A DNA stretch of 33,547 nt, taken from the IMG/VR virus record IMGVR_UViG_3300027784_000525, positions 1 to 33,547 of that record. The stretch is one strand, 5' to 3'. Within the stretch, counting starts at the first letter, position 1. Every line of letters starts with the position of its first letter. The stretch comes from a virus. Shown here piece after piece: positions 8,067 through 33,547 of the stretch. The notes below the pieces were generated by a model. That model had not been told where the DNA came from. It did no database searches and saw nothing but the letters and a program-made list of their open reading frames with translations. A program made the position numbers and the translations under genes.

Positions 8067-8809
8067 TGGACAGCGATGTTTTAAAGTTTAACGGCAAGCA
8101 AAGCGATGCCGAAGATCTGGGAATTGAACTGTGGCGGCGCTGGGATCGGCCTATCATTGCAGGAACACGCGATCATATAGGCGAAATTGTCGGGCGTGAT
8201 GGTGCGCTGGACTTTGGTTATGATCTGCAGGCTATAGAGATCCCTTGCGCCTTTATCGTGGCAGCAGATAGCGTGCAGGCGTTACGTTCGCAAGCGCGCG
8301 CGATCGCGCAGTGGCTGCACGTGGCAGAGCCTAAAGAATTGATATTCGGCGATGAACAGGGAAAATATTATATGGCAAGGCCGCTGGGCAGTGTTGATCT
8401 CACGGAGCTAATAACTACGGGCGAAGGTGAAGTTACTTTTTACGTGCCGGAAGGCTGCGCTTTTTCAGATACTACGAAAACGGCAGACGGTTATCCCGTG
8501 GATAACGAGGGAACGCTGGCGTGCCCGGTTATTATAGCTTATACAATGCCGGAAAATAGTTTTTATTTAACCCTTTACTTTTCAGATGAACCTCACACCT
8601 TCCAGTTACTGCACGATCTGCAGGCAGGCGATGAAGTTACGGTGGACACGGCGAAAAAGACGGTTACTGTTAACGGCACTGATGCCACGGCGGACATTAC
8701 TTTCAAGAGTGAATGGATTAAAATGCCTCCGGGCGAACATACCTGCTACGCGAACCACGAAGGCACGGACGGCGTGCCGACAATAACGTTCAGGGAGCGA
8801 TACTTATAA
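8066..8809 (+). CDS. Distal tail protein (Dit)
   Basis: 247 residues; the ATG overlaps the tape-measure stop and GGGAGGG lies ahead. The N-terminal domain shows RPIIAGTRDHIGEIVGRDGALDF-like spacing (I quote only part), with G-R-D-G in a beta hairpin and a region VAEPKELIFGDEQGKYYMAR followed by a strand typical of the Dit belt domain. The C-terminal domain (from about residue 155) is a beta sandwich with TVDTAKKTVTVNG. Dit forms the hub at the tail tip and always follows the tape measure in this phage class. Confidence 0.85.
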   Translation: MDSDVLKFNGKQSDAEDLGIELWRRWDRPIIAGTRDHIGEIVGRDGALDFGYDLQAIEIPCAFIVAADSVQALRSQARAIAQWLHVAEPKELIFGDEQGKYYMARPLGSVDLTELITTGEGEVTFYVPEGCAFSDTTKTADGYPVDNEGTLACPVIIAYTMPENSFYLTLYFSDEPHTFQLLHDLQAGDEVTVDTAKKTVTVNGTDATADITFKSEWIKMPPGEHTCYANHEGTDGVPTITFRERYL

Positions 8810-21116: not shown

Positions 21117-21164
21117 AAATAAAGTTTGGCCTCCCTTCCTGTAACACACTTCCCTTCTCCTGTG

Positions 21165-21195
21165 GCTGTGCAGCAATGCTGCACAGCTTTTTTTT
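21165..21195 (+). terminator. Strong Rho-independent terminator of the late operon
   Basis: GCTGTGCAGC (21165-21174), loop AAT, GCTGCACAGC (21178-21187), then eight T residues. A 10-bp perfect GC-rich stem plus T8 is a textbook terminator. It separates late genes from the hammerhead module. Confidence 0.95.
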
Positions 21196-21237: not shown

Positions 21238-21345
21238 AGACTTTTTGCTGGCAGTAGATGGTAAATGCCTTAACCACGGGCTTTTTCGGCCTCAAAAAGT
21301 TGCAAGTGGATGTCGGGAAAATCGGGTGAAATAAGGGTAAAACGC

Positions 21346-21374
21346 TTTACAAAGGGTCTGATGCATGGTATTAT
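21346..21374 (+). promoter_or_regulatory. Near-consensus extended -10 promoter of the ncRNA/hammerhead module
   Basis: TTTACA at 21346-21351 (5 of 6), a 17-base spacer, and TATTAT at 21369-21374 (5 of 6) preceded by TGG (21366-21368), an extended -10 element. Transcription should start near 21381. Confidence 0.8.
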
Positions 21375-21380
21375 ATAGTT

Positions 21381-21737
21381 GCAAGAGGGAAAGGGAAAAC
21401 AGCAAGACCGAACCTTGAAAACAGAATAGCAGCTGCAAGCCGGGAAACCTTAAGGGCCGGGCACAGCCAAAAGAAAGAGGCTGACGGGAGCAGGAACCGC
21501 GAAACACTGGCAAGGTAAAACGAAGGGCAGCTGCAAGACTGGCGAAAGCCACGGGTGGCGCCGATATAACGCTGGGGAGCCGAGAGGCTTTAAAAGGATA
21601 ACACGGCGCAGGAGCTGCAAGAAGGAGCAGGCGAGGATGGCGGTGGATAGGTAAACAAGACCCCGAAGAAGGCGGCCATTGCAAGGCCGCTTAAGCGAAG
21701 CCGAAATAACCGGGCAGCGGAAACGCTGCCCGTTATA
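21381..21737 (+). ncRNA. Large structured non-coding RNA, ended by hammerhead cleavage
   Basis: No plus-strand ORF with a ribosome site lies between the promoter and 21806. Compact helices with loops typical of folded RNA are visible: CAGCC/GGCTG (21464-21483), TGGC-GAAA-GCCA (21540-21551), AGCC-GAGA-GGCT (21578-21589), and GCGGCC/GGCCGC around ATTGCAA (21672-21690). Stem III of the ribozyme is also capped by GAAA (21720-21723). The motif GCTGCAAG recurs at 21432, 21530 and 21614 (GTTGCAAG at 21378). The 3' end would be set by ribozyme cleavage after 21737. Size and style recall the ornate phage RNAs (GOLLD, ROOL), but I cannot match it to a known class. Confidence 0.7.
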
Positions 21738-21778
21738 CGCTGCAGACTGACCGCTGCGGTGCTGATGAGGCAGGTTAA
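21691..21778 (+). ncRNA. Hammerhead ribozyme A (type II)
   Basis: Core elements in type II order: GCC (21700-21702), GAAA (21703-21706), stem III (TAAC...GGGCAGCG, GAAA loop, CGCTGCCC-GTTA, one bulged C) to 21735, U21736 pairing with A21706, and A21737 as the cleavage nucleotide. Stem I is CGCTGCAG (21738-21745) with CTGCGGTG (21754-21761), eight pairs of which two are wobbles. CTGATGA (21762-21768) and GGC (21769-21771) close stem II with GCC. TTAA at 21691 and 21775 could extend stem II. Every catalytic-core base is present. It sits between the ncRNA and the ribosome site of the amidoligase gene. Confidence 0.93.
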
Positions 21779-21805
21779 AAAAACTTTTAAAGGAGCGTTT
21801 AAAAG

Positions 21806-22636
21806 ATGAAAAAGGAACAGGTTAACGGATTTAACACGGAGCGGACTTTTGGAGTAGAGATTGAGTTTTTAGGACACGCGAACGCAGTGGCCGCAAAGTG
21901 CCGGGCAATGGGCATTGATTGCAGAGTTGAAAACTATAACCACGAAAACCGCGAATGGTGGAAAATAGTTACTGACGCAAGTGTTAACGGAGCCGGAGAA
22001 GGGCTGGAGATTGTGAGCCCGATATTGCACGGCCGCGAAGGGCTGGAAGCAGTTAAAACAGTTTGTGCAGCGTTGGAAGCAGCAGGCGCGACAGTAAATG
22101 TAACATGCGGCCTGCACGTGCATCACGGAGCAGAGGACTTTAACGTTAACAGTTTTAAAAACATTACTTTACTTTATACCCGATACGAAAAAACGATTGA
22201 CAGCCTGATGCCGAAAAGCCGGCGCGGCAGTAATAACACTTACTGCGCAAGTTTGTTTGACTTGCAGCACGCGACCTTTAGCAGCGCGCAGCGCTTTATG
22301 GAATGGATTTACAATGCACGCGATACCGACCAGTTGCTTGACTTTTTTAGCAGGCGCTTTTTAAAGCTGAACCTGCGCGCTTACCGGGCGCACTCGACAG
22401 TAGAGTTTAGGCAGCACAGCGGAACGACAGAAGCCGCGAAAGTTGTTAACTGGATTTTGTTAACGCAAGCAATGGTTAACAAAGCGACAGAGCGCACGGT
22501 GCTGAACCCGGCGAACGTTGACGACAGCTGGAAAAGCTTTAAAAAAGCAGTGGCCTTGACGGGCTACCGCGGAGCGACAGAAGAACTGCAGGCGGTGCAG
22601 CGGTTTTATGGCAAGCGCCGGAAGCAGTTAGCATAA
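21806..22636 (+). CDS. Amidoligase-family enzyme
   Basis: 276 residues behind AAAGGAGC. Motifs follow the glutamine-synthetase-like amidoligase family: FGVEIEF near the N-terminus (metal-binding acidic residues), WKIVTDASVNG, GLEIVSPIL, CGLHVHHG (histidines of the active site), MPKSRRGSNNTYC, and HSTVEFRQHSGTT with N-W-I following. Such enzymes are predicted to form amide or peptide bonds using ATP, for example adding glutamate or other amines to proteins or peptides. The gene lies between hammerheads A and B and contains no GATC, unlike most of the phage. A gamma-glutamylcyclotransferase gene 3 kb downstream is a natural functional partner. Confidence 0.88.
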   Translation: MKKEQVNGFNTERTFGVEIEFLGHANAVAAKCRAMGIDCRVENYNHENREWWKIVTDASVNGAGEGLEIVSPILHGREGLEAVKTVCAALEAAGATVNVTCGLHVHHGAEDFNVNSFKNITLLYTRYEKTIDSLMPKSRRGSNNTYCASLFDLQHATFSSAQRFMEWIYNARDTDQLLDFFSRRFLKLNLRAYRAHSTVEFRQHSGTTEAAKVVNWILLTQAMVNKATERTVLNPANVDDSWKSFKKAVALTGYRGATEELQAVQRFYGKRRKQLA

Positions 22637-22638
22637 CA

Positions 22639-22707
22639 GCCGAAACCGGGCGGAGCAGCAGCGGCCTGCCCGGTATGCAAAGGGTGCCGCCTTTGCACTG
22701 ATGAGGC
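22639..22707 (+). ncRNA. Hammerhead ribozyme B (type II)
   Basis: It starts two bases after the amidoligase stop. GCC (22639-22641) and GAAA (22642-22645) lead into stem III CCGGGC/GCCCGG (22646-22651 with 22668-22673), then U22674 and A22675, with cleavage after A22675. Stem I is TGCAAAGG (22676-22683) with CCTTTGCA (22690-22697), eight Watson-Crick pairs. CTGATGA lies at 22698-22704 and GGC at 22705-22707, closing stem II with GCC. The next ribosome site (CGGGAGG) lies about 25 bases downstream, so a cleaved mRNA keeps its translation signal. Confidence 0.95.
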
Positions 22708-22738
22708 AGGCAGCAAAAAAAAACGGGAGGCGTTAAAT

Positions 22739-23176
22739 ATGGAACTGCAGGGCAAGCTTACCAGCAAGGAAGCGCAGTGGACTTATTTGTTAGCAGGGCG
22801 CGCAGTGGTTACGCTGGAAAATAGCGAAACCGGGAACCGCTTTACTTACAAAGTGAAAGGCTTGGAGAAAGACGATGGAACAATGCTTTATTTTGTGAGT
22901 GTTTTAAGTGGCCACGATAATGACAGCGATTATGCTTATATGGGAACCATATTTGCAGACGGGCGCTTTAAGCTTACAAAGAAAAGCCGGATCAGCGCAG
23001 AAGCTGCGAGCTACAAAGCTTTTTACTGGCTCTACGAAATGCTTAAGCAGGGCAAAGAATTGCCGGAGCAGGTTAACTTTTACCATGCCGGAACCTGCGG
23101 ACGCTGTGGCCGGACTTTAACGGTGCCGGAGAGCATAGAAACTGGGATGGGGCCGCACTGCAGGAACGCGGCCTGA
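22739..23176 (+). CDS. Zinc-finger protein, DUF6011-like
   Basis: 145 residues behind CGGGAGG. The C-terminal ~30 residues hold CGRCGRTLTVPESIETGMGP followed by HC, a C-x2-C ... G.GP.C zinc-binding pattern seen in DUF6011-type phage proteins. The N-terminal ~100 residues have a beta-rich pattern (GNRFTYKVKG, TMLYFVSVLSG, DYAYMGTIFADGRF) and then a helix. Function is unknown; these domains are frequent in phage early operons and may bind nucleic acid. Confidence 0.7.
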   Translation: MELQGKLTSKEAQWTYLLAGRAVVTLENSETGNRFTYKVKGLEKDDGTMLYFVSVLSGHDNDSDYAYMGTIFADGRFKLTKKSRISAEAASYKAFYWLYEMLKQGKELPEQVNFYHAGTCGRCGRTLTVPESIETGMGPHCRNAA

Positions 23177-23205
23177 TAGTTAAAAATAAACGGGAGGTTT
23201 TTACA

Positions 23206-23511
23206 ATGGAAAAAATTTATGACCCTAATAAAAGGCGGATTGAAGTTAACTTTAAGGCTTACCGGGCGGATTACATTGCTGACAACGTGCAGCCCGGCGG
23301 CAATGTTTACGTTTACTTTAACAAAGAAGCTTACATTAAGGAAAAACATGCGCTGATAGCGCGCCTGCAGCATGACCCCGGTGTTGAGGTTAGAGGCTGG
23401 GATCAGGAACTTGAGTGGTATTTAGTGGTTATAAGTGATCACAGGCTGCGACAGCGTGGCGTGAATGAAAGTGCTTGGAGCAGGGCGCAAGAACATAACC
23501 TGTTAGGTTAA
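23206..23511 (+). CDS. Hypothetical early protein
   Basis: 101 residues with CGGGAGG ahead. It is basic, with a mixed alpha/beta pattern (NVYVYFNKEAYIKEKHALIA, YLVVISDHRLRQRGV). I do not recognise a family. It lies in a group of three small genes between hammerheads B and C and would share their processed mRNA. It holds two of the three GATC sites in this module. Confidence 0.7.
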   Translation: MEKIYDPNKRRIEVNFKAYRADYIADNVQPGGNVYVYFNKEAYIKEKHALIARLQHDPGVEVRGWDQELEWYLVVISDHRLRQRGVNESAWSRAQEHNLLG

Positions 23512-23532
23512 AAAAAACAGGAGGTTTTTAAC

Positions 23533-23766
23533 ATGATTAAAATTACATTAGAAACTGGCAAAACATACGAGGCTGAAACTTACGAAAGGCTTATAACAGT
23601 GCTGGCGCGAACCAGTTATTTACAGGAAAGCAAGTTTGACTATATGGCGAACGTGGCGAAGCGCTGCAATATATGGAACGGCGCTGAAATTGAATACCAT
23701 AACGCCGAAAGCTTTATTAAGGAGTTGCAGCGCGTGGGCGTGGTGCAGGAGCTATGGGAAGAATAA
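23533..23766 (+). CDS. Hypothetical early protein
   Basis: 77 residues with CAGGAGG ahead. It begins with a beta hairpin (IKITLETGKTYEAETYE) and ends in a short helical region (YHNAESFIKELQRVGVVQEL). No family is recognised. Its stop codon (23764-23766) touches the first pairing base of hammerhead C, so the 3' end of this mRNA would be the ribozyme product. Confidence 0.75.
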   Translation: MIKITLETGKTYEAETYERLITVLARTSYLQESKFDYMANVAKRCNIWNGAEIEYHNAESFIKELQRVGVVQELWEE

Positions 23767-23827
23767 GCTGAAACCGGGCCGAGTGCCCGGTATGCTGGGA
23801 ACTGGGCGAACCAGCACTGATGAAGCT
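23766..23827 (+). ncRNA. Hammerhead ribozyme C (type II)
   Basis: AGCT (23766-23769) pairs with AGCT (23824-23827) as stem II. GAAA (23770-23773) leads to stem III CCGGGC, loop CGAGT, GCCCGG (23774-23790), then U23791 and A23792; cleavage is after A23792. Stem I is TGCTGG (23793-23798) with CCAGCA (23811-23816) around a 12-base loop. CTGATGA lies at 23817-23823. Stem sequences differ from copies A and B, but the core is identical, so the fold is kept by covariation. It directly follows a stop codon and lies ahead of the AAAGGAGG of the next gene. Confidence 0.95.
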
Positions 23828-23858
23828 GCCCGTTGTATAAAACAAAGGAGGCAATAAT

Positions 23859-24053
23859 ATGAACGGACAAAAAGGATACCACGAAAAGAATTTTAAGGTA
23901 ACATTTACCACGGAGCAGGAAGTTTGGGCGCGTTTACGGGACATGCTTTACCATTATAAGGACGGAACCTTGACAGTTAACGAAAAATTAAAGCCGAAAA
24001 TGCAAGAGCTTGAGGAATTTTTAATTGACAACGATTGCGAATACTTTTGGTAA
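23859..24053 (+). CDS. Hypothetical early protein
   Basis: 64 residues, first gene after hammerhead C, with AAAGGAGG ahead. The sequence is charged with two likely helices (TTEQEVWARLRDMLYHY, EKLKPKMQELEEFLIDNDCE). No family is recognised. It is the last gene of the GATC-poor module; GATC becomes frequent again from 24074. Confidence 0.7.
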   Translation: MNGQKGYHEKNFKVTFTTEQEVWARLRDMLYHYKDGTLTVNEKLKPKMQELEEFLIDNDCEYFW

Positions 24054-24071
24054 AATAAAAGGAGGTGCAGT

Positions 24072-24263
24072 ATGATCAGGACGCGGACGGACAAGTATTT
24101 AGCAGCGCACGGCAAGCCGCCGAAAGGGAGCGGCGCTTGGTTGTTTTGGATCGGCGGCCAATTTTACGGGCCGCCGGGGCCGTGCACTTACTCGCAGGCT
24201 CGCAAGCAGGCGAAGGAAATGGCAAGGTTACGCGGTGCAAAACAGATTTATGTTATGCCATAA
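24072..24263 (+). CDS. Small hypothetical protein
   Basis: 63 residues with AAAGGAGGTG ahead, 18 bases after the previous stop. It is basic with GAWLFWIGGQFYGPPGPCTY and a C-terminal helix (ARKQAKEMARLRGAKQIY). No family is recognised. A frame that overlaps it from 24065 has no support of its own until the ATG at 24287. Confidence 0.7.
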   Translation: MIRTRTDKYLAAHGKPPKGSGAWLFWIGGQFYGPPGPCTYSQARKQAKEMARLRGAKQIYVMP

Positions 24264-24286
24264 AACGCAGAAAAGGAGTTGATCGT

Positions 24287-24655
24287 ATGTTGATCAAGAC
24301 AGACGAAAGGCTGGCACGAAAGCTTGATAAGTTGGGTGCAGTTACAGCTTACAAAGCAGATCTGGAGCACGCTATTAAGGCGGATCCGGACAGAATTACA
24401 GCGGAAAAGGTTTACTATTTAATGGGCTGGCCGCGCCGATCGATGGGTGAAATTACTAATAGCGAAGCGCGCGAACTGGTGCAGCAGGGCAGGGCGGCTG
24501 CAGTGGCGCCGGATCAGATCGTGGAGCTGGTTTGCCCGTTATGCGAAAATACGGGAATGGTTTTTATGGAAAACGGCGATGAATACGGCTGCGGAGTTTG
24601 TGTTTGGGGCCGGGAGCTTTTGGCCGAAAATAAAGAATACTGGGAGGCGAATTAA
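24287..24655 (+). CDS. Zinc-ribbon-containing early protein
   Basis: 122 residues. The ATG at 24287 is chosen because AAAGGAG lies about 10 bases upstream, although the frame is open further back. Residues about 82-105 contain CPLCENTGMVF and YGCGVC, two C-x2-C pairs that can hold one zinc ion. The N-terminal half is helical (LARKLDKLGAVTAYKADLEH). The role is unknown; zinc ribbons in phage early genes are often nucleic-acid-binding. Confidence 0.75.
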   Translation: MLIKTDERLARKLDKLGAVTAYKADLEHAIKADPDRITAEKVYYLMGWPRRSMGEITNSEARELVQQGRAAAVAPDQIVELVCPLCENTGMVFMENGDEYGCGVCVWGRELLAENKEYWEAN

Positions 24656-24656
24656 A

Positions 24657-24989
24657 ATGGCAAAGTTACATTTACAAAGGGAAATTATAAGTGAGGGAGG
24701 CCTTGTTTTAAGCTCGGACACGCTTAGGCCGAGCGATTTGCTGCAGCGTGCAGCAGAGGTTATTAATGCTTTTTATTTAGAACCGGACTTTATGGAAGAT
24801 CTGGAAACGCTGCTGGAACGCAGCGAGGAAGAATTGAACTGTGGGCCATGGCGCGCGGCTGCAGAGGAACTGTTTAATGAAAGCCTGTTTTATTACTTTA
24901 ATGAGATCGCGCCAATGGGCTTTTACTTTGGTGCCTGCGAGGGCGATGGTGCCTTGATAGGCTGGTTTTGGGAGGATCAGGAGCTATGA
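24657..24989 (+). CDS. Hypothetical acidic early protein
   Basis: 110 residues from ATG 24657, preceded by GGGAGG inside the end of the previous gene. It is acidic and helical (LLQRAAEVINAFYLEPDFME, EEELNCGPWRAAAEELF) with aromatic C-terminal strands (GALIGWFWEDQEL). No family is recognised. It ends in an ATGA overlap with a very short gene. Confidence 0.7.
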   Translation: MAKLHLQREIISEGGLVLSSDTLRPSDLLQRAAEVINAFYLEPDFMEDLETLLERSEEELNCGPWRAAAEELFNESLFYYFNEIAPMGFYFGACEGDGALIGWFWEDQEL

Positions 24990-25096
24990 GCGAACAATTT
25001 TTAAGCTTTTTTGTTAACTTTTGGCTCGTGGGCTTTATGCTTTGGGTGCAGGGTGTTTGCATCGTTTACATTTTATACAAGGAGCGTGATGGATAA
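24986..25096 (+). CDS. 36-residue single-span membrane protein
   Basis: The ATG at 24986 overlaps the upstream TGA, has GGAGGATCAGGAG ahead, and its TAA overlaps the next ATG at 25096. The product is one hydrophobic helix (FFVNFWLVGFMLWVQGVCIV) with a charged end (YKERDG). Coupling on both sides makes it a convincing small gene. It might affect the host membrane, but there is no direct evidence of function. Confidence 0.7.
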   Translation: MSEQFLSFFVNFWLVGFMLWVQGVCIVYILYKERDG

Positions 25097-25278
25097 TGTT
25101 AAACTGCGCAGATTGCAGGAAGGAAATGGTTGACGTGGCTGCAGCACTGCTGCACGACATACCGAGAGAACCGATTTTTACCGTTTATAATAGCGCAAGA
25201 ACAGTTTGGCGTTTAGTTTGTGAAGATTGTTATATTGAGATTAATAATAGCAAAAAGGGAGGCTTTAAAAATGAGTAA
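25096..25278 (+). CDS. Small zinc-binding protein
   Basis: 60 residues, coupled to the previous gene by a TAATG overlap. CADCRKEM near the N-terminus and CEDCYIEI near the C-terminus provide two C-x2-C pairs about 40 residues apart. A helical insertion lies between. It is probably a small structural zinc fold of unknown function. It overlaps the next start by eight bases. Confidence 0.7.
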   Translation: MLNCADCRKEMVDVAAALLHDIPREPIFTVYNSARTVWRLVCEDCYIEINNSKKGGFKNE

Positions 25279-25516
25279 ATATTATGGCAGGTTACGAGGC
25301 AGCCGCGGTGAAGCTACGCGGCAAGGTTCGGAGAACACGGGGATCGAGGCCGCGGTGCAAAGTTATGACGGCAGCGTGGCAATGCGCCTGCAAACGGGTG
25401 GAGATGGCGATCCTATAATAGAGATCGTGAAGCACGATGGCAGTAACGGTGGGATGAGTGGCGGCAAGCTGCTTTATTGCGGAAAATTGAGCGACTTGGA
25501 ACTTTTAGCGACATAA
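25271..25516 (+). CDS. Hypothetical early protein
   Basis: 81 residues from the ATG at 25271 (GGGAGG about 10 bases upstream, inside the previous gene). It is glycine-rich with beta potential (VQSYDGSVAMRLQ, GGKLLYCGKLSDLELLAT). An upstream ATG at 25220 in the same frame lacks a good ribosome site. No family is recognised. Confidence 0.7.
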   Translation: MSKYYGRLRGSRGEATRQGSENTGIEAAVQSYDGSVAMRLQTGGDGDPIIEIVKHDGSNGGMSGGKLLYCGKLSDLELLAT

Positions 25517-25532
25517 AGGGAGCGTGCAGAAA

Positions 25533-26030
25533 ATGAAAACTATGTTTTATTTTGGTTATGGCAGCAATATTAATTACAAGCAGATGAAGCAGCGGTGCCC
25601 GAACGCGGAGGCTGTGGGCGTGGCAAAACTGCGCGGACACAGGTTGATCTTCCGTGGCGTGGCGGACGTGGTGCCGCACAGGAACGGCGGCGCTGTTATG
25701 GGCGTGCTTTGGAAAATAACTCCGCGCTGCTTAAAGGCGCTCGACCTCTACGAAGGTTATCCGCGCTTATACGGGCGGCGGCTTTGCAGCGTGGCAGTGG
25801 AGGAAGATGGCACACTGCGCGAGGCGCTTATATATTACATGAAAACGGGCGATCTGGCGGTGCCGCACAGAGAATACTGGCAGGCCATTATGGAAGGTTA
25901 CGAGGATTTTAACATGATACCACGGCGCGACATGCTGGAGCCGAATTATGGGCTGGGCAATGCGCGGATCAATTATGACACGGAAGGTTATTATGCAAGG
26001 CTGAACCAGCGACAGATCGATTATGATTAA
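25533..26030 (+). CDS. Gamma-glutamylcyclotransferase-like (AIG2/GGCT fold)
   Basis: 165 residues; ATG 25533 is preferred to GTG 25524, which is too close to AAGGGAG. FYFGYGSNINYKQMKQRCP is the YGSN substrate-binding loop with the typical following helix. FRGVADVVPHRNGGAVMGVL gives the central barrel strands. LDLYEGYPRLYGRR contains the catalytic glutamate. The family releases 5-oxoproline from gamma-glutamyl amides. Together with the amidoligase it suggests a phage system that makes and removes gamma-glutamyl or similar amide bonds. That link is inferred from known genomic pairings of the two families. Confidence 0.88.
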   Translation: MKTMFYFGYGSNINYKQMKQRCPNAEAVGVAKLRGHRLIFRGVADVVPHRNGGAVMGVLWKITPRCLKALDLYEGYPRLYGRRLCSVAVEEDGTLREALIYYMKTGDLAVPHREYWQAIMEGYEDFNMIPRRDMLEPNYGLGNARINYDTEGYYARLNQRQIDYD

Positions 26031-26055
26031 AGTTGTAACGCGTGGCAGCACTGGG

Positions 26056-26078
26056 ATCAGGTTGCGCGTGGTGCCGTG
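26056..26078. repeat. Direct repeat R1 left of the promoter cassette
   Basis: ATCAGGTTGCGCG continues with TGGTGCCGTG. The same two blocks recur at 26144-26176, split there by 10 bases (CGCCTGCGCG). The promoter and operator lie between the two copies. Confidence 0.8.
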
Positions 26079-26096
26079 TGCAGGTTGTAAATTTGA

Positions 26097-26134
26097 TTGC
26101 CAATCTGTGCTAAATATTTTTATAATATTAGCAC
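26097..26134 (+). promoter_or_regulatory. Strong promoter with overlapping operator for the XRE gene
   Basis: TTGCCA at 26097-26102 (5 of 6), an 18-base spacer, and TATAAT at 26121-26126 (6 of 6). GTGCTAA (26107-26113) and TTAGCAC (26128-26134) form an inverted repeat around the -10. GATTG-C-CAATC (26095-26105) covers the -35, and ATTTGA/TCAAAT (26091, 26140) gives an outer dyad. These are likely binding sites for the HTH protein encoded next, so autoregulation is plausible. An ORF of 65 codons (26023-26220) crosses this site and is probably not a working gene. Confidence 0.8.
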
Positions 26135-26143
26135 TAATGTCAA

Positions 26144-26176
26144 ATCAGGTTGCGCGCGCCTGCGCGTGGTGCCGTG
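26144..26176. repeat. Direct repeat R2 right of the promoter cassette
   Basis: Second copy of R1, with the two blocks separated by a 10-base insertion (26157-26166). R1 and R2 start 88 bases apart and bracket the operator/promoter. Confidence 0.8.
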
Positions 26177-26242
26177 CCCGGTGCTGCTACGAATACAGCT
26201 TTGAGCTTAAAGGGCTGTGAATACGAATAAGGAGGTGTTTAC

Positions 26243-26521
26243 ATGGAGAAAGCTCCCACGGAAAGGTTCCGTCCTTTGGATTGGAGCATGGTGCAGCTTA
26301 GACCTACGCTGCGCTCGTTAAGGCAGCAGCGCGGCTTGAAGCTGGGCGAAGTGGCAGAAAAGTTGGAGGTTAGTTTAACGCTGCTGCACTTTATTGAGCA
26401 CGGCAAGCGCACGTTATCACAGGCGCGCGCTGAAAAAATGGCGGAAATCTACGGCGTTGAACCGGAAATTGTTTGGGCGCTGTATGAAAACGCTATCGGA
26501 TTACTTGAGAGTTTGGACTAA
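26243..26521 (+). CDS. XRE-family transcriptional regulator
   Basis: 92 residues behind AAGGAGGTG. A helix-turn-helix of the Cro/CI type spans about residues 24-80: LRSLRQQRGLKLGEVAEKLE, then TLLHFIEHGKRTLSQ and a helix up to EIVWALYENA. It lies 116 bases downstream of the dyad-bearing promoter, so it is a good candidate to bind that operator and control the early genes to its right. No dimerisation or peptidase domain is present. Confidence 0.85.
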   Translation: MEKAPTERFRPLDWSMVQLRPTLRSLRQQRGLKLGEVAEKLEVSLTLLHFIEHGKRTLSQARAEKMAEIYGVEPEIVWALYENAIGLLESLD

Positions 26522-26543
26522 AAAAAAAGGGAGGCTTTTTATT

Positions 26544-27638
26544 ATGGCAGTTAGTTTGGATCATGTTATTGACAGGATCAACGAAGATCAAGTGGGCAAG
26601 GCGGATTATATAACGCCGATGAGTAATTTGCACGTGGATAGATTAACGGGGGATCTTGCATTTAAGCGCACGCTGGGCGATGTTATGGTTGAAGCAGAAG
26701 TTGACACTCCTACGCTGCGCGACATGCCTTTTGCGGCCTCTGACTGGGCCGAAGGGCAGCTGTTGAGCAAGCTGGGAATGCCGCGTGATTACTTTAGGAA
26801 AATAAAGGAAGCTGGCGCGGTGGACATGTTTGCAGACCATTTTAATTACTGGGCAGGCAAGGATGACCGGATGATCCGGCTGCGCGCAAAGGTGAGCGAC
26901 CCTGCTGGCAGTTACCAGCAAGGCTTGATCCGGGGCGCTGTGAGCGATCGTTATAGCGTGCTTGATAACGATTTTATTATTGAGGCGCTGAAAGGGATCC
27001 TTAAGGGCTATACTGGGGATTATCAGATTGAGGCGTTTCACTTGGATGACAGGCGGATGCACTTAAGGATCACTTATAACGATCTTACTGCACAGCTGGG
27101 TGAAACTGCAGGCGGCGAAGCGGACTTTAGCAAAATCGGAACGGACATTGTTAATAGCGAAGTAGGCGCAAGCTCTTTTAATTTGCAGGCTTTGATCTGG
27201 CGGCTTATTTGCAGCAACGGCCTGCGCGGCTGGGGGAATGATGGCGATGCTTATACGCAGCGGCATATTAATTTAAGGCCGGATGAATTTCAAGAGCGAG
27301 TTGCAAGAGGGCTGGTTAATACCGTGAAATCAGGCGAAGGCTTTTTAAACGAATATAACATGGCACGGGCGCATCAGGTGCAGAACCCGTTTAATGTTAT
27401 TAAAAAGCTGGCCGCTGAAGGCGGTTATAGCAAGCAGTTTGCTGATAGCGCTGTTAACGAGTTTGAGTTTGATGATACTCGTTATGGCGTGGTGAACGCG
27501 TTTACGCGCGCAGCAAGGGAGCTGCCGAATGAACGCAGGCTGGACGCTGAAAAGTTTGCAGGCAAGCTGTTAACTTTACCGAGCAGCCGCTGGGAAAACG
27601 TGGATAACGAAGAAGAACTGGAAGAAGCTACTATTTAG
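26544..27638 (+). CDS. DUF932 phage/plasmid-like protein
   Basis: 364 residues from ATG 26544 with GGGAGG ahead. The sequence follows the DUF932 pattern: an N-terminal region with LLSKLGMPRDYFRKI, then LIRGAVSDRYSVLDNDFIIE (the R.A.VSDRY..LDN signature), MHLRITYND, VNSEVGASSFNLQALIWRLI and CSNGLRGWG. Such proteins are common in phages and plasmids near recombination or replication genes. Their biochemical role is not established; a link to DNA metabolism is likely from context. Confidence 0.85.
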   Translation: MAVSLDHVIDRINEDQVGKADYITPMSNLHVDRLTGDLAFKRTLGDVMVEAEVDTPTLRDMPFAASDWAEGQLLSKLGMPRDYFRKIKEAGAVDMFADHFNYWAGKDDRMIRLRAKVSDPAGSYQQGLIRGAVSDRYSVLDNDFIIEALKGILKGYTGDYQIEAFHLDDRRMHLRITYNDLTAQLGETAGGEADFSKIGTDIVNSEVGASSFNLQALIWRLICSNGLRGWGNDGDAYTQRHINLRPDEFQERVARGLVNTVKSGEGFLNEYNMARAHQVQNPFNVIKKLAAEGGYSKQFADSAVNEFEFDDTRYGVVNAFTRAARELPNERRLDAEKFAGKLLTLPSSRWENVDNEEELEEATI

Positions 27639-27652
27639 GAAGGTGTGATAGC

Positions 27653-28024
27653 ATGGGTGTTTTAACCACGACCGAAAAAGGCAGCCTCTTATACCGGGGC
27701 CGCTTTGATCGGCGAGTTGTAGAGGCGATTAAACAGTTACCGGGCAGGCGTTATGACCCTGAAACTAAAGAATGGACAATGCCGCCGGATCCGGAGGCGA
27801 TCGATCTGCTGCAGCAGTTTGAGCAGGTTAGGATCACGCCTGAAGCATGGAGGGCCGTGCAGGCAAGGGAAGAACGGGCCGCGGCGGTTATGGTTGCAAA
27901 GCAGGAGGAAAAACCTGTGCCGCTGCAGCCGATGCCGCTTAAAGGCGTGGAGCCTTTTGCACATCAGATAACGGGCTACAATGTGGCGCTATCACTGTTT
28001 AGATTGGAGGTGCAAGATGAATAA
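27653..28024 (+). CDS. HARP-like N-terminal part of a split SNF2 helicase
   Basis: 123 residues. Residues 10-50 (LLYRGRFDRRVVEAIKQLPG then RYDPETKEWTMP) match the HARP-like domain that precedes SNF2 ATPases in phages. Residues about 95-118 (PMPLKGVEPFAHQITGYNVA then LSLF) are the Q-motif region that should run straight into the P-loop. Instead the frame ends in RLEVQDE and TAA at 28022-28024. The ATPase resumes 49 bases later in the same frame. The helicase is thus split into two coupled genes, or was interrupted by the small insertion between them. Confidence 0.75.
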   Translation: MGVLTTTEKGSLLYRGRFDRRVVEAIKQLPGRRYDPETKEWTMPPDPEAIDLLQQFEQVRITPEAWRAVQAREERAAAVMVAKQEEKPVPLQPMPLKGVEPFAHQITGYNVALSLFRLEVQDE

Positions 28025-28076
28025 ACGCGCGGATCATATTAAAATACATGTTTTCAAAGGAGGTGATCTAAAATGA
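28017..28076 (+). CDS. Possible 19-residue coupling ORF
   Basis: ATG 28017 has TGGAGGTG ahead. The frame ends in TGA at 28074-28076, overlapping the next ATG (28073) as ATGA. The peptide MNKRADHIKIHVFKGGDLK is basic. It may only couple translation of the HARP-like gene to that of the ATPase, since its last codons contain the ribosome site AAAGGAGGT. Confidence 0.4.
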   Translation: MNKRADHIKIHVFKGGDLK

Positions 28077-29459
28077 CCACGCAAAACGCCGGGGTCGCCC
28101 TGCTCCATGAGCAGGGCTGTTAACTGTGGCAAAACGTTGACCGCGATCGCTGTGGCTGGCAGGCTTTACTTGGACGGACATATTAAGCGCGTTATGATCG
28201 CAGCGCCTTTGAGCGTGGTGCCTGTTTGGGAGCGTGAGTTTAAAGATTATGCCGACTTTAAGGTTGAAGTAAAGGTGCTGACAGGCAGTATTAAAAAACG
28301 GATCGAAGCGCTGCAGCAATGGAAAGACCCGGACGCGCTGCAGGTTATCGTTATTAATTACGAGGGCGCGTGGCGCAAGGGCATGTTTGAAGAACTGGTA
28401 AAATGGCAGCCGGATCTTATGATTGCTGATGAAAGCCAGAGGATCAAGAACCACGGCACAAAGCAGAGCAAGGCTTTGCATAAACTGGGCGACCGGACAA
28501 GGTGCAAGATGATCCTGACCGGAACTCCGGTTACTGCTGGGCCGCTGGACTTTTTCAGCCAATACAGATTTCTTGACCCGAATGTGTTTGGCAAAGCTTA
28601 TTATCCCTTTAGAAACAGATACGCTGTTATGGGCGGCTTTGAAGGGAAGCAGGTTATAGGCTACAAGAACAAGGAAGAACTGGTGCGCAAGGCGCACAGT
28701 ATAGCGCACAGAGTAACAAAGGAGGAAGCGCTGGACTTGCCGGATCAGATCGATCAGGATCTTTATTGCACGCTTGAACCGAAGGCTGAAAAAAGTTACC
28801 GCGAAATGCTTAATATCAACGTGGCGCAGCTTGAAACAGAGCGCAAGGATAAAGGGCAGATCACGGCAAGCAATGCCTTAAGCTGCCTGCTGCGCCTGCA
28901 GCAGATTGTCGGCGGATTTGTGCCTAAAGACGGGGCCGAGCAGGGCGATTACTTGCAAGTCAGCACGGCAAAGCTTACCTTATTAAAGGAAACGCTGAAC
29001 GACTTGATCGGTGCCGGACATAAAGTTGTAGTTTTTGCACGCTTTAGACCGGAGATCGAGGCCATTATGGCCATGCTGGACAGCGAAAGTTTTAACGGAG
29101 TGGGCCGCGTGCGCTATTCGCATATATACGGATCCGTTCCGCAGAACCAGCGCGGTGAAATGGTGCACGAATTTCAAACAGACCCGGAAGTGCGAGTATT
29201 TATTGCGCAGGTGCAGACTGCCGGGCTGGGGATCACGCTGCACGCTGCAGATACCGCTATATTTTACAGCGCTGATTTTAGTTATGCGAATTATGATCAG
29301 TGCCGGGCACGAATACACAGGATCGGACAGCAAAACAAGGTTAACTATTTGCACTTGATCGCGAAAGATACTGTGGACGAAAAAATATACAAGGCCATAA
29401 AAACCAAAAAATCGATCGCGGATGACGTGGTTGATAACTGGCAAAGTTATTTCGATTAG
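28073..29459 (+). CDS. SNF2-family helicase, P-loop interrupted by a 7-nt segment
   Basis: An ideal AAAGGAGGT site stands 8 bases before ATG 28073. That frame reads NAGVALLHEQGC and then meets TAA at 28121-28123. The remaining 445 residues are in the +1 frame from TGT 28125. They show CGKTLTAIAVAG, IADESQRIKNH (motif II), LTGTPV, a long C-terminal lobe, QVQTAGLGITLHAAD and QCRARIHRIGQQNKVNYLHL (motif VI). Skipping 7 bases from TGT (28118-28120) to TGT (28125-28127) gives HEQGC-GKTLTA, an exact SNF2 motif I. The ATG at 28107 in the downstream frame has no ribosome site and would lack the motif I glycine. So the product is made by recoding, or the gene is broken, or the sequence has an error. 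Confidence 0.75.
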
Positions 29460-29465
29460 CAGAAA

Positions 29466-29495
29466 GCAGGGCGATCAATGCTTGATCGACCCTGC
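29466..29495 (+). terminator. Rho-independent terminator-like hairpin after the helicase gene
   Basis: GCAGGG-CGATCAA (29466-29478), loop TGC, TTGATCG-A-CCCTGC (29482-29495): 13 pairs with one bulged A. A T-rich run (TTTATTTTTTA) begins about 13 bases later, a little far for a classic terminator. Confidence 0.65.
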
Positions 29496-29507
29496 CGAAC
29501 TTATACC

Positions 29508-29536
29508 TTTATTTTTTACTGATAGTATAGTATAAT
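29508..29536 (+). promoter_or_regulatory. Possible promoter in the 29.5 kb control region
   Basis: TATAAT at 29531-29536 with TTTATT 17 bases upstream (3 of 6). It is placed just after the terminator, so it could restart transcription for the right-hand genes. Confidence 0.4.
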
Positions 29537-29580
29537 TGAGCTACGGCGATAAATACCGAGTTTTTTAGCAATATGAAACG

Positions 29581-29611
29581 CTATTTAAGCGCGACAGGCG
29601 CTTTTAAATAG
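29581..29611 (+). other. Stem-loop in the leader region
   Basis: CTATTTAA-GCGC, loop GACAG, GCGC-TT-TTAAATAG: 12 pairs with a two-base bulge, ending directly before GAAGGGAGGT. It may act as a leader structure or regulator site. The 321-base gap 29460-29780 otherwise holds a terminator, two possible promoters and one possible small ORF. Confidence 0.5.
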
Positions 29612-29624
29612 AAGGGAGGTGCTG

Positions 29625-29741
29625 GTGCCCTGCTACGGCTGCGCAAGCTTGACAGCGGCGCCTGTGCTGCACGACAGGGCGGATTTAAGAAGGGAGGTTG
29701 GTAAAATTTCGCTTTGCAGTTTGTTAACGAAGACGGTATAA
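29625..29741 (+). CDS. Possible 38-residue small protein
   Basis: A GTG at 29625 lies behind GAAGGGAGGT and opens a frame of 38 codons to TAA 29739-29741. The N-terminus has a C-x2-C pair (PCYGCASL) and the rest is polar. A good ribosome site is the main argument. The reading frame is short and has no recognisable family. Confidence 0.3.
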   Translation: MPCYGCASLTAAPVLHDRADLRREVGKISLCSLLTKTV

Positions 29742-29742
29742 T
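29714..29742 (+). promoter_or_regulatory. Probable promoter before the 29781 operon
   Basis: TATAAT at 29737-29742 with TTGCAG 17 bases upstream (29714-29719, 3 of 6). CGGTAT (29735-29740) and ATACCG (29748-29753) form an inverted repeat over the -10, a possible operator. The next ATG lies 39 bases downstream. Confidence 0.5.
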
Positions 29743-29780
29743 AAGAATACCGCAAAAAAACAGGAAGGGAGGGCAGTAAC

Positions 29781-30194
29781 ATGGCAGAAGGGAAGCTGTT
29801 TGAACTGGCGGATCAGTTGAAAGATCTTACGGAGCAAAAAAATACTTTACAGGCCGATCTTAAGGAGCTGAATAAAAAGCTGGAGGACGTGAACGGCGCG
29901 CTGGCGCGTGAAATGCTTGACGCCGAATTGCAAAACTTCCAGCGAGGCGACCGCACTTTTTACCTGCGAACGGATCTGCAGGTGAGCGACATTGCAGAAA
30001 TGCGCGAGGCTTTATACCAGACACTCCGCGATCAGGGCTTTGGTGATTTGATCAAGGAAACTGTTAATCCGCAGACGCTGAAGGCTTTTGTAAAAGAGCA
30101 AGTTGCAGATACCGAAGATGACGAGTTACCAGAATGGATCGCGCCTTATGTGCGCGCTTACAAGCAGGAAAAGGTCGGGATCCGCAAGGCTTAA
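29781..30194 (+). CDS. Coiled-coil early protein
   Basis: 137 residues behind AAGGGAGGG. Residues 1-50 form a clear coiled coil (LKDLTEQKNTLQADLKELNK, heptads with leucine), followed by a small folded region (RTFYLRTDLQVSDIAE, GFGDLIKETVNPQTLKAFV). This layout is frequent in phage proteins encoded next to recombination or ssDNA-binding genes. I cannot assign a biochemical role. Confidence 0.7.
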   Translation: MAEGKLFELADQLKDLTEQKNTLQADLKELNKKLEDVNGALAREMLDAELQNFQRGDRTFYLRTDLQVSDIAEMREALYQTLRDQGFGDLIKETVNPQTLKAFVKEQVADTEDDELPEWIAPYVRAYKQEKVGIRKA

Positions 30195-30241
30195 TTTGGT
30201 TGAGTAACATAATTTAACAAAACTTTAAGGAGGATTTTAGA

Positions 30242-31039
30242 ATGACTGGAAAAAATGCTTTAGTAGTTATTAGCGATTGGGAAGCTCCTACACTGTTAAA
30301 CAGTGAGGACGTTATGGAGGAAATGGATGGTTTACAGTTTAACTTTACGAACGTGAAAGTGCCTTCGGGCGGCGGCATGGCTTTTGAGCTGCCGGGCGAT
30401 GATGACGATGAGCCGGATATTGTTAAGGAACTTGAAGGTGTAATTGTGCATCATCACCCAATCAATGTTTATTTTGCAGCCGCTTACGATGGTGAAAAGC
30501 AGCCGCCTGATTGCGTGAGCATGGACGGCAAGTTTGGCACGGGCGAACCCGGTGGCGAGTGCGCGAATTGCGAGCTGAACCAGTGGGGAACCGGGCGCGA
30601 TGGTGAAGGCAAGGCGTGCAGCAATCGGCGCCGCGTTTACTTACTGCGCAGGGATGAGATGTTTCCGCTGTTGATCAGCCTGCCGCCCACGAGCCTGAAA
30701 AACTTTAGCGACTTGATTAGCAGGAAAATCCTGCAAAAAAGCCGCCGGAGTAATCAGGTTGTAGTTACTGCAAAGCTGAAAAAAGTTACCAGTGGCAGCG
30801 GCATTGAATACTCGCAGATCGGCTGGGCAGTTACCGGGCAGCTCGATCATGATACTGCGCTGGCGATGAAGCGCTATGGCGAGAGCATTAAGGCGCTGGC
30901 TGGCGGTTTAACGGTGGATCAAGTGGAAGGTGAGGCTATGGAAGGCGCAGGCGCGGGCAGCGTGCAGCACGGCGCTGACTTCCCCGATGAATTAATTGAC
31001 AGCAAGGACGATCAAGGCGAGCAATCGCAGATCAGTTAA
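30242..31039 (+). CDS. Putative ssDNA-binding-like replication protein
   Basis: 265 residues with AAGGAGGA ahead. A central zinc-binding stretch (ECANCELNQWGTGRDGEGKA then CSNRRRVYLL) and a beta-rich core with basic residues (KILQKSRRSNQVVVTAKLKK) resemble a family of phage proteins thought to bind single-stranded DNA. The C-terminus is strongly acidic (DELIDSKDDQGEQ), as is usual in single-strand-binding proteins that recruit partners. It stands directly before the primase gene, which supports a replication role. Confidence 0.6.
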   Translation: MTGKNALVVISDWEAPTLLNSEDVMEEMDGLQFNFTNVKVPSGGGMAFELPGDDDDEPDIVKELEGVIVHHHPINVYFAAAYDGEKQPPDCVSMDGKFGTGEPGGECANCELNQWGTGRDGEGKACSNRRRVYLLRRDEMFPLLISLPPTSLKNFSDLISRKILQKSRRSNQVVVTAKLKKVTSGSGIEYSQIGWAVTGQLDHDTALAMKRYGESIKALAGGLTVDQVEGEAMEGAGAGSVQHGADFPDELIDSKDDQGEQSQIS

Positions 31040-31044
31040 GGGCA

Positions 31045-31077
31045 CGCGGCAGGCTGCTATGATGGCGGCCTGCCGCG
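31045..31077 (+). terminator. Hairpin between the ssDNA-binding-like and primase genes
   Basis: CGCGGCAGGC (31045-31054) pairs perfectly with GCCTGCCGCG (31068-31077) around a 13-base loop; CTTTAAATAAAA follows. The weak T run suggests partial termination or mRNA 3'-end protection. Confidence 0.5.
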
Positions 31078-31101
31078 CTTTAAATAAAAGGAGTTGATCG
31101 A

Positions 31102-33547
31102 GTGCAAGAATATGATCATTTAATAAACTGGGAAAACTTTTATAAGCCGCGCCTGCAAAACGCAAAGATCAACGGAACTGAAATAAAGGGCCTGTGCCCG
31201 TTACACAGCGAAACCGATGGCAGCTTTACTGCAAGCCTGCAGACCGGAAAATGGAAGTGTTTCGGCTGCGATCGTTCTGGCAATGCTTTAACATACCTGC
31301 AAGAAGCCGAAGGTTTGAGCAAGCAGGACGCGCTTAAGGTGCTGGGCGATGAAGCAGGGATCGATCTGCTGGCCGAGCAGAAGGAAAAACGCAGTTATAC
31401 GCTGGCAGATTATGCGCACAGCAAAAAACTTGATCCGGAGTTTTTAGGAAGCTTGGGTGTTAAAAACGTTAAAAACGGCGTGCAGATACCTTATTATGAT
31501 CTTGAGGGCAACGTGGCAAGCAATCGAAAACGTTTTGGCGACACTGGATCCGGGCCGAAGTTTTTATGGACGCGCGGCAGCAAGACGCTTTTATATGGTT
31601 TATGGCAGCTGCAAAAAATCAGCAAAGAAGGCTGGGTGGTGCTTGTTGAAGGTGAAAGCGATAGCCAGACCTTATGGCAGCACGGCATCCCGGCGCTGGG
31701 AATACCGGGCGCGAATACCTTTAAGCCAGAATGGGCGGATCACGTTAAAGATCTGAAGCATATTTATATATTTAACGAACAGGACACGGCAGGCGAAACA
31801 ATGAAGCGCAAGGTTTGCGAAGGGCTGTTAAAAGCTGGTTATAAGGGCAAGGCTTACAGCTTGACTTTAATTGACGCAAAGGATCCGAGCGAGCTGCACT
31901 GCAGCGACCCGGAAAACTTTTTGGATCGCTGGCAGGCGGCGCTTGATAACACTGCAGAAGAACTGGACATTATCGAAACGGCAGAAAGGCCGGAGCAGGT
32001 GCAGATCACGGACGCGCCTGTGCAGCTTAAGCAGCCGCCGGGCTATCAATTCAGCGATCAAGGGCTGGTTAAAGTGGATCCGAAAACTGGCATGGCGACC
32101 CGGTTCTGCCGGACGCCGATGCTTATTTCTCGGCGGATAAAATCAGTGGAAGACAATACGGAAAAAGTGGAGATTTGTTACAAGCAGGACGGATCTTGGA
32201 AGTATGAAATTTATCCGCGATCGCTGGTATTTGCTTCACGATCAATAACACAGCTGGCAGATCAGGGCATGACGATCAGCAGTGAAAACTCACGGCACGT
32301 TATCGCTTACCTGCAGGCGCTGGAGGATGAAAACTACGACTTAATCGAAAGCACGAAGGCCGTTTCGCAGCTGGGCTGGCTTGATCGGAAGCACTTTTTA
32401 CCATGCGAGCCGGGCGATTACAGGATCGATGTTGATCCTGCTACGCGGAACACGCTGGACGCTTACCACGAAGAAGGATCGCTGGAAGAATGGCGGCAGT
32501 TGATGAGCAGGCATCGCAATCAGAACGACATATTTCGCTTTTTACTGGCCTCGAGCTTTGCAGCGCCGCTGCTGCACTGGTTACGGCACAGGATTTTTAT
32601 GGTGCATAACTGGGGAAGCACGCGGATCGGCAAAACGGCGGCGCTTAAAGCCGCCTTGAGTGTTTGGGGCGAGCCGACCGATCTTATGACCACGTTCTTC
32701 ACGACAGCCGTGGGGCTTGAGCGCATAGCTGGGCTTTATAAGGATCTGCCGCTGGGCATTGACGAAAAGCAGGTGTCAAACAAAAAGGATGACATTGCTG
32801 AAATGCTGGTTTACATGATCAGCGGCGGCAAGGGCAAGGGTCGCGGTGCAAAAGACGGCGGCCTGCAAGCAGCGCAGCAGTGGCGATCTGTGGTTATAAC
32901 TACGGGCGAAGAACCGCTTGTAGGCGATAACGCTATGAGTGGATCTTATAGCAGGATCGTGGAAATTGAAGGCGCGCCTTTTGAAACTGAAAAGCAGGCG
33001 GAACCAATGCACTCCCTGAACAGTTATGGCCATGCTGGGCCGATGTTTGTTAAGGATCTGATTGCGCTCGGCCCGGATCAAGTGAATGATGATTTTAAGG
33101 CGCTGCGCGCTGAAACGGAGGCCGTTTTAAGTCAGCAATATGATATTCTGCCCTCTAATATGACCGCGATCTCGGTGGTTATGCTGGCGGATATTTACGC
33201 GGCGCAGTGGATCTTCGGCGAGGAATACCAGCAGGCAAAAGGCCGGGCGCTGGATATGGCCATGAGCATTGCGCAGGATCTTATTAAGTTGGAGGACGTG
33301 GATCTGGGCAGGCGCGCCGAAAAATATATGCAGGGCTGGATCGCTACTAATATGAAGCGCTTTACGGATCCTGAAATGGTGCCGCGTTATGGTTATTATA
33401 GCGATGAAGAACCGGACACGGACGAAGGCGTGTTTTTGATAATCAATACAGTGCTCGATCAGGCGCTGGACGAAGGCGGCTTTAGTAAACGATCGGTGCT
33501 GCAGGCGTGGCGCAAAAGTGAACACTGCGATATTTTGGTGCCGCGTG
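31102..33547 (+). CDS. Primase / DUF927-type helicase, 3' end beyond the window
   Basis: The frame opens at GTG 31102 (AAAGGAG ahead) and stays open to the window edge, 815 codons. Residues 32-56 form a primase zinc finger: C32-P-L-H35 and C53-F-G-C56. Around residue 180 WVVLVEGESDSQTLW is a Toprim motif, followed by IYIFNEQDTAGE with the second acidic pair. From about residue 400 a DUF927-like helicase domain follows with a complete Walker A (GSTRIGKTAALKAAL, near residue 504) and DLPLGIDEKQV as a Walker B-like segment. It would unwind DNA and prime replication. It is the main replication gene seen here. Confidence 0.88.
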   Translation, partial: MQEYDHLINWENFYKPRLQNAKINGTEIKGLCPLHSETDGSFTASLQTGKWKCFGCDRSGNALTYLQEAEGLSKQDALKVLGDEAGIDLLAEQKEKRSYTLADYAHSKKLDPEFLGSLGVKNVKNGVQIPYYDLEGNVASNRKRFGDTGSGPKFLWTRGSKTLLYGLWQLQKISKEGWVVLVEGESDSQTLWQHGIPALGIPGANTFKPEWADHVKDLKHIYIFNEQDTAGETMKRKVCEGLLKAGYKGKAYSLTLIDAKDPSELHCSDPENFLDRWQAALDNTAEELDIIETAERPEQVQITDAPVQLKQPPGYQFSDQGLVKVDPKTGMATRFCRTPMLISRRIKSVEDNTEKVEICYKQDGSWKYEIYPRSLVFASRSITQLADQGMTISSENSRHVIAYLQALEDENYDLIESTKAVSQLGWLDRKHFLPCEPGDYRIDVDPATRNTLDAYHEEGSLEEWRQLMSRHRNQNDIFRFLLASSFAAPLLHWLRHRIFMVHNWGSTRIGKTAALKAALSVWGEPTDLMTTFFTTAVGLERIAGLYKDLPLGIDEKQVSNKKDDIAEMLVYMISGGKGKGRGAKDGGLQAAQQWRSVVITTGEEPLVGDNAMSGSYSRIVEIEGAPFETEKQAEPMHSLNSYGHAGPMFVKDLIALGPDQVNDDFKALRAETEAVLSQQYDILPSNMTAISVVMLADIYAAQWIFGEEYQQAKGRALDMAMSIAQDLIKLEDVDLGRRAEKYMQGWIATNMKRFTDPEMVPRYGYYSDEEPDTDEGVFLIINTVLDQALDEGGFSKRSVLQAWRKSEHCDILVPR

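Follow-up and report, generated by a model that had tools for sequence, protein, structure and literature searches.

Leaders of rRNA transcripts are released by RNase III together with trimming enzymes. Nut-type leaders of phages comprise a boxB hairpin and depend on the phage N protein; lambda nut uses host Nus factors, and HK022 put works by RNA alone. In descriptions of E. coli rRNA antitermination, boxA is presented as the key element and is thought to aid RNA folding as well (PMC10250234). The boxA system is also reported to shield CRISPR arrays, which are long untranslated RNAs, from Rho (cited in PMC12691694). Among the large structured RNAs of phages, GOLLD members are described as often exceeding 800 nt, and ROOL and GOLLD RNAs as often lying near tRNA islands (PMC12286853). 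For tandem hammerheads of bacterial and prophage operons cleavage was demonstrated, according to PMC3088659, which also gives pseudoknots between loop I and the 3′ tail as typical of natural type II hammerheads. The RNA analysed here brings together hammerheads of phage operons, antitermination of the rRNA type and the large structured phage RNAs whose function is unknown, three topics that are usually studied separately.

The window, i.e., the whole stretch of DNA that was analysed, is a virus record of 33,547 bases from a tailed phage. Late structural and lysis genes (tail, tape-measure, Dit, amidase) lie upstream of the RNA, and a helicase gene and other replication-type genes lie downstream. 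The two gene blocks are separated by an intrinsic terminator, a sigma70-type promoter and the structured RNA. An operon headed by this RNA begins at the late-gene terminator and reaches into the replication genes (all features of the window are on the + strand unless stated otherwise). The terminator (21164..21194; 11-bp stem followed by a T-run) ends the upstream late/structural block. The first gene of the operon encodes an Amidoligase_2 protein (21806..22636; Pfam PF12224, E 1.5e-42) and is followed by a DUF6011 gene (22739..23176; PF19474, phrog_20259). A tRNA scan of the window gave 0 tRNAs. Positions 21381 to 21737 apparently constitute a structured, non-coding RNA with a ribozyme at its 3′ end, about 357 nt in length if counted between the inferred transcription start and the position where the hammerhead is expected to cleave, and roughly 400 nt stay untranslated ahead of the first start codon of the operon. 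This confirms the original prediction of a structured RNA at 21381–21737, which had missed both its boxA and the fact that it heads an operon.

A search with the amidoligase revealed one relative, the IMG/VR contig 3300027784_000769 (L002, also listed as L017 and L305). L002 has the same gene arrangement, with the RNA upstream of an amidoligase gene that is 77% identical, and promoter, boxA, body and first hammerhead are kept together. The full stretch of 551 bases is 75% identical between window and L002, the RNA body 82% (48 substitutions in 266 ungapped columns), and the proteins along the common stretch 33–77%. At the site matching the terminator, L002 also has a G+C-rich hairpin followed by T's. 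A block of 23 bases 5′ of the promoter, AAATGCCTTAACCACGGGCTTTT (21263..21285), is kept in L002 amid diverged flanks. It has a single site within the window, and its inner 18-mer is absent from all IMG/VR contigs apart from those of the window and L002; being common to window and L002 only, it is perhaps an operator. The promoter itself (21346..21374) has the hexamers TTTACA and TATTAT at a distance of 17 nt and a TG before the −10 box, i.e., an extended −10. In this region 3 promoter-like sites were found versus 1.4 expected; since hexamers and the 17-nt spacing are identical in L002, the site is more than a mere consensus match. Two statements of the original prediction, that the RNA has its own promoter and contains no supported ORF, are thereby borne out: no + strand ORF of at least 60 aa is present inside the RNA, and a coding function of a minus-strand ORF with TTG start (130 aa, 21292–21684) was rejected because indels of 1 nt and 4 nt relative to L002 break the shared frame.

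Predicted folding energies of the RNA are only moderately unusual. The z value was −3.04 for positions 21381–21780 (0/100 shuffles equally stable), −2.27 for the window body at 21428–21699 (4/200 shuffles), and −1.26 for the L002 body, which is not significantly stable (22/200 shuffles). When folded separately, the bodies of window and L002 adopted nearly the same helices, P1–P8 and P10. The predicted fold, compared with L002, has a 5′ domain (21429..21534) that consists of P1 (21429–21436/21527–21534), P2a (21447–21451/21512–21516), P2b (21456–21460/21507–21511), P3 (21464–21468/21479–21483) and P4 (21485–21487/21497–21499). It is followed by the hairpin P5 (21540..21551; TGGC-GAAA-GCCA), the loop of which has 8 nt in L002 and is not of the GNRA type. 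The predicted central domain (21552..21665) is closed by P8 (21552–21555/21662–21665) and includes P6 (21558–21563/21604–21609), P7 with a conserved GAGA loop (21576–21581/21586–21591) and P9 (21614–21618/21627–21632). The hairpin P10 (21672..21690; GCGGCC/GGCCGC) reads GCAGCC/GGTTGT in L002, with three changed pairs that, paired by hand, are all kept. Helices capped by GAAA or GAGA had been a prominent part of the original prediction, and the window indeed has three GNRA-capped stems (GAAA at 21544, GAGA at 21582, GAAA at 21720) versus 0.46 expected (P = 0.012). Conservation in L002 extends to the GAGA loop alone, and the GAAA at 21720 belongs to the hammerhead. GNRA loops were consequently rejected as a defining feature (1/3 conserved).

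The comparison with L002 also allowed us to look for covariation. The null model redistributes substitutions only between columns that share a base and takes no account of neighbour effects, so that the following P values are rough: 9 of the 18 pairs of the window-only fold that are substituted in L002 still pair, against about 21.5% under the null (P = 0.0002), and 4 double changes compare with 0.86 (P = 0.008), while in the reverse test, placing the L002-only fold on the window, 9/17 pairs are kept (P = 0.003) with 3 double changes (P = 0.047). In the consensus structure of P1–P9 (51 pairs) 9 pairs change; 7 of these keep pairing, 3 by double changes, and 2 break. Both the three double compensatory changes, which are held by P1 and P2a, and the two broken pairs are in the 5′ domain. 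P3–P6 and P8 are invariant and therefore uninformative, the central domain receives little test because most of its pairs do not change, and with only two sequences and 3 double changes in the 51 pairs of P1–P9 the covariation is thin. P10 and the first hammerhead were compared after realignment by hand, as both are misaligned by MAFFT. Alignment with a homologue thus supports a structured RNA, by covariation relative to the single relative L002.

Three type II hammerheads were detected in the window. The first (HH1, 21699..21779) scores 21.2 bits, with cleavage expected after A21737. HH2 (22638..22719; 41.3 bits, cleavage expected after A22675) lies directly 3′ of the amidoligase stop codon, and HH3 (23766..23834; 32.0 bits, cleavage expected after A23792) overlaps the end of a 77-aa ORF; these two downstream copies had been overlooked originally. 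Relative to the gathering score of 37 for Hammerhead_II in Rfam, HH2 is above and HH1 and HH3 are below. L002 also carries three hammerheads (42.4, 30.1 and 20.7 bits). The first two are at matching places in both phages, and the third, located at 8541–8621 in L002, follows a different gene in each. The counterpart of HH2 reaches 42.4 bits in L002, and HH1 stays below the Rfam cut-off in both phages (21.2 bits in the window, 20.7 in L002). HH1 has the core elements GAAA, cleavage residue and CUGAUGA, with stems I–III in type II order. Stem I has 8 bp in both phages, with four changed pairs that are all kept, and the hand-paired pseudoknot between loop I and the 3′ tail covaries (UGACC/GGUUA in the window, UAGCC/GGCUA in L002). 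One extra U after CUGAUGA is a real doubt for the L002 copy of HH1. Judged from its sequence, HH1 is expected to cut after A21737, exactly the end point originally proposed, and the conserved core, stem I and pseudoknot bear out a 3′ end defined by a ribozyme at the sequence level. According to Rfam, the viral contig L022, which carries a boxA, has a further type II hammerhead (6901–6965), and a hammerhead-like stretch was seen by eye in each of L364 and L369.

Close to the 5′ end of the RNA is the sequence GAACCTTGAAAACAGAATAG (21410..21429), a 20-mer that is identical to an rRNA leader box and invariant in L002. The exact 20-mer was found in 31 GTDB stretches. By script, 4 of the 31 (L285, L292, L293, L298) have it 124–144 nt before the start of 16S rRNA, and in L287 a downstream 16S rRNA start is visible by eye. 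In several others the contig ends within the same leader sequence; among the rest are tRNA clusters of Microcoleus-type cyanobacteria (L271, L289, L295) and places without assignment. Since the same 20-mer stands before 16S rRNA genes, we regard it as a natural rRNA-leader box; from its position and the known boxA literature it follows that GAACCTTGAAAACAGAATAG is a boxA, a putative antitermination signal for NusB/S10. With one base left free, the box occurs in 27 IMG/VR stretches, including the L002 contig. Other phages have similar boxes in untranslated leaders: the box of Mycobacterium phage Blue7 is 354 nt ahead of the next CDS, and the leader of Bacillus phage Slash is intergenic. In L009 a ROOL RNA (7503–8093; 346 bits) with eight tRNAs downstream begins with this boxA, which overlaps the model start. 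A boxA as a general feature of ROOL was rejected, as it was seen in 1/5 copies examined by script scan or flank. No published report of boxA-led structured phage leaders was found in the literature searched, which omitted most subscription journals.

The boxA scans revealed further untranslated RNAs. Three of about 260–350 nt that start with boxA have a T-arm-like hairpin near the 3′ end (L005, 1696–2010; L028, reverse strand, 3042–3320; L267, the Blue7 leader, 879–1225). In L005 and Blue7 this hairpin adjoins a strand able to pair with the stretch after boxA, in L028 it closes a degenerate tRNA-like fold, and in all three ARAGORN found no tRNA and Rfam no family. A 3′ T-arm was rejected as a general trait of boxA-led phage RNAs, the count of 4/29 loci versus 34/1160 background windows being suggestive only, and L002 has no T-arm near the 3′ end. 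Eleven loci of seemingly related phages (L003, L004, L008, L010, L012, L013, L019, L021, L023, L024, L027) carry, as seen by eye, a short boxA-led G+C-rich leader with segments like GGCGGGATCCC or GGCGGGTTCTACC. In Ruminococcus (L270, 750–996) a boxA is followed at a distance of about 150 nt by a pemK RNA motif (RF02913), which was called in L270, and L272, also from Ruminococcus, has the same boxA stretch. In Oscillatoriales and Microcoleus (L271, L273, L289, L295) a conserved stretch without translation (GGCGGTGTAGACTCCGG...) starts with boxA and is soon followed by tRNA genes, of which three of the four loci have 17–29.

A third member of the RNA was not among the matches listed in IMG/VR scans with the RNA, the upstream block or the amidoligase. 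In GTDB the amidoligase scan gave no relative, and the boxA scan gave boxes and not the RNA body. The covariance model R1, applied to sets of 99 (including the two founders), 68, 31 and 9 sources, placed only the founders above noise; some IMG/VR loci were judged by reading or by ranking of the boxA context instead of R1, and only the L002 contig stood out. A search of one phylum (398 genomes), run without positive control, gave 0 matches to the RNA. Among the best 80 IMG/VR matches to the amidoligase, the 79 other loci (identity at most 47%) lack the RNA body. Cmscan with all families of Rfam 15, at gathering scores and at E ≤ 10, assigned no family to the RNA body, BLAST against phages gave only a 30-base chance match, and BLAST against plasmids gave nothing, so that a known RNA class was rejected, in agreement with the original prediction. 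The covariance models of ROOL (RF03087) and GOLLD (RF02032) do not match in the window (GOLLD was sought in ten records, without positive control). Because of the missing model match, the absence of tRNAs and its smaller size, the RNA is neither ROOL nor GOLLD. Homology, covariation and Rfam thus uphold a structured, ribozyme-ended RNA of no known class, and the proposed likeness to GOLLD and ROOL turns out to be one of style. The whole RNA is a new family with two known members, which combines elements of known kinds, an rrn-type boxA and a type II hammerhead.

On balance, and with modest confidence, we favour the view that the RNA is a boxA-antiterminated operon leader that is folded and released by HH1. 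The promoter would start a long rightward operon reaching into the replication genes. As one of the first elements to be transcribed, boxA would bind NusB and S10 and thereby bring RNA polymerase into an rRNA-type antitermination complex, which would shield the ~400 untranslated nt, and then the operon, from Rho. For the complex at boxA a role as RNA chaperone has been proposed (PMC10250234, PMC12691694), and the body of about 300 nt would fold into the conserved P1–P10 structure. Cleavage by HH1 after A21737 would set free an RNA of ~357 nt that ends in the stem III hairpin, and would leave an amidoligase mRNA with a 5′ hairpin, so that both new ends would carry hairpins; HH2 and HH3 would cut the remaining message likewise. 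Protection from Rho is preferred because intrinsic terminators are not in excess downstream: from 21380 to 33547 there are 15 terminator-like sites on both strands versus 15.1 expected, and intrinsic terminators were rejected as a downstream obstacle to antitermination. Together with the ~400 nt before the start codon, this makes Rho protection and help in folding the simplest roles for boxA, which would be a simple and testable reason for full-length transcription of such RNAs in the absence of translation. Observed are the homology, the conserved promoter, the identity of boxA, the common fold, the covariation, the hammerhead core with its pseudoknot, and the position in the operon. We infer transcription, Nus binding, antitermination, cleavage and stability of the RNA. 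Several points speak against this leader function: 9/18 changed pairs of the window-only fold are lost in L002, the L002 body is not significantly stable (z −1.26), HH1 scores below the cut-off in both phages and has an extra U in L002, covariation from just two sequences is thin and includes 2 broken pairs, and a structured body of 300 nt would be superfluous for boxA by itself.

The body may be conserved because it belongs to the antitermination device, as a nut or put element of unusual size, or because the free RNA acts in trans, as proposed for GOLLD and ROOL; the two may hold at once. With an action in trans, the phage would make the released body for its own sake, as a stable RNA with a structural or RNP-forming role like GOLLD, ROOL or OLE, and boxA would merely ensure its full length. 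We take this to be a substantial possibility, although short of probable: the body is 82% identical in nucleotides versus 33–77% of residues in the neighbouring proteins, its own ribozyme is expected to free it, and a real ROOL in L009 has the same boxA at its 5′ end, but only two members exist, similarity to the ROOL copies is not seen by model, and boxA is present in a single one of the five ROOL copies. Strong conservation and release by a ribozyme thus lean towards a role in trans, and position and boxA towards an antitermination device. The location of the body immediately ahead of HH1 and the amidoligase gene would also suit a regulated hammerhead (aptazyme or riboswitch), with the body sensing a ligand or protein and controlling HH1 cleavage and hence amidoligase expression, and the mostly unpaired segment CUGACGGGAGCAGGAACCGCGAAA is invariant between window and L002. 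Against this stand the lack of any Rfam riboswitch match, the existence of HH2 and HH3 without such a body, and its presence in 0/79 of the other amidoligase loci (best 80 IMG/VR matches), which make regulation of this kind quite improbable. Even less credible to us is a decoy function, in which the RNA would be abundant and its boxA would sequester NusB-S10, so that the host makes less rRNA during infection. A free RNA that is potentially stable and has an exact boxA of the rRNA type would fit such a decoy, but there is one box per RNA, and the position at the head of the operon is more simply explained by antitermination in cis.

Beyond the leader function favoured here, it is conceivable, if rather doubtful, that phages borrow the machine that makes rRNA: boxA at the head of an operon would recruit the Nus complex to build and fold large free RNAs, which would then be released at the RNA level, and the RNA of the window would be a new family within a wider, unnamed class of pre-rRNA-like RNAs. 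The means of release would be a hammerhead in the window and perhaps tRNA-like ends in Blue7 and L005, with the ROOL of L009 as a further case. Because this ROOL has the same box, full-length transcription of untranslated RNAs with the help of boxA may extend past the phages of the window and L002.

The RNA can be compared with several known systems. Like ROOL and GOLLD RNAs it is phage-borne, structured and non-coding, and one ROOL (L009) is also boxA-led, but the RNA of the window has no match to their models, is shorter (about 357 nt versus 574 positions of the ROOL model) and has no adjoining tRNAs. It shares with lambda nut and HK022 put that a cis RNA heads a phage operon, but its body is far larger and has a predicted self-cleaving end. 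As in CRISPR arrays with boxA, described in work cited in PMC12691694, boxA would protect a long untranslated RNA from Rho; the RNA and its carrier are different. With rrn leaders it shares the 20-base box, identical in sequence and placed ahead of a long structured RNA that is not translated; here the RNA is the leader of a phage operon, without rRNA, and its release by a hammerhead is predicted. With the tandem type II hammerheads of prophage and phage operons, as far as they are described in PMC3088659, the window has in common that several ribozymes lie between the genes of one operon and that loop I pairs with the 3′ tail; its distinguishing feature is a first ribozyme that forms the end of a structured RNA led by boxA.
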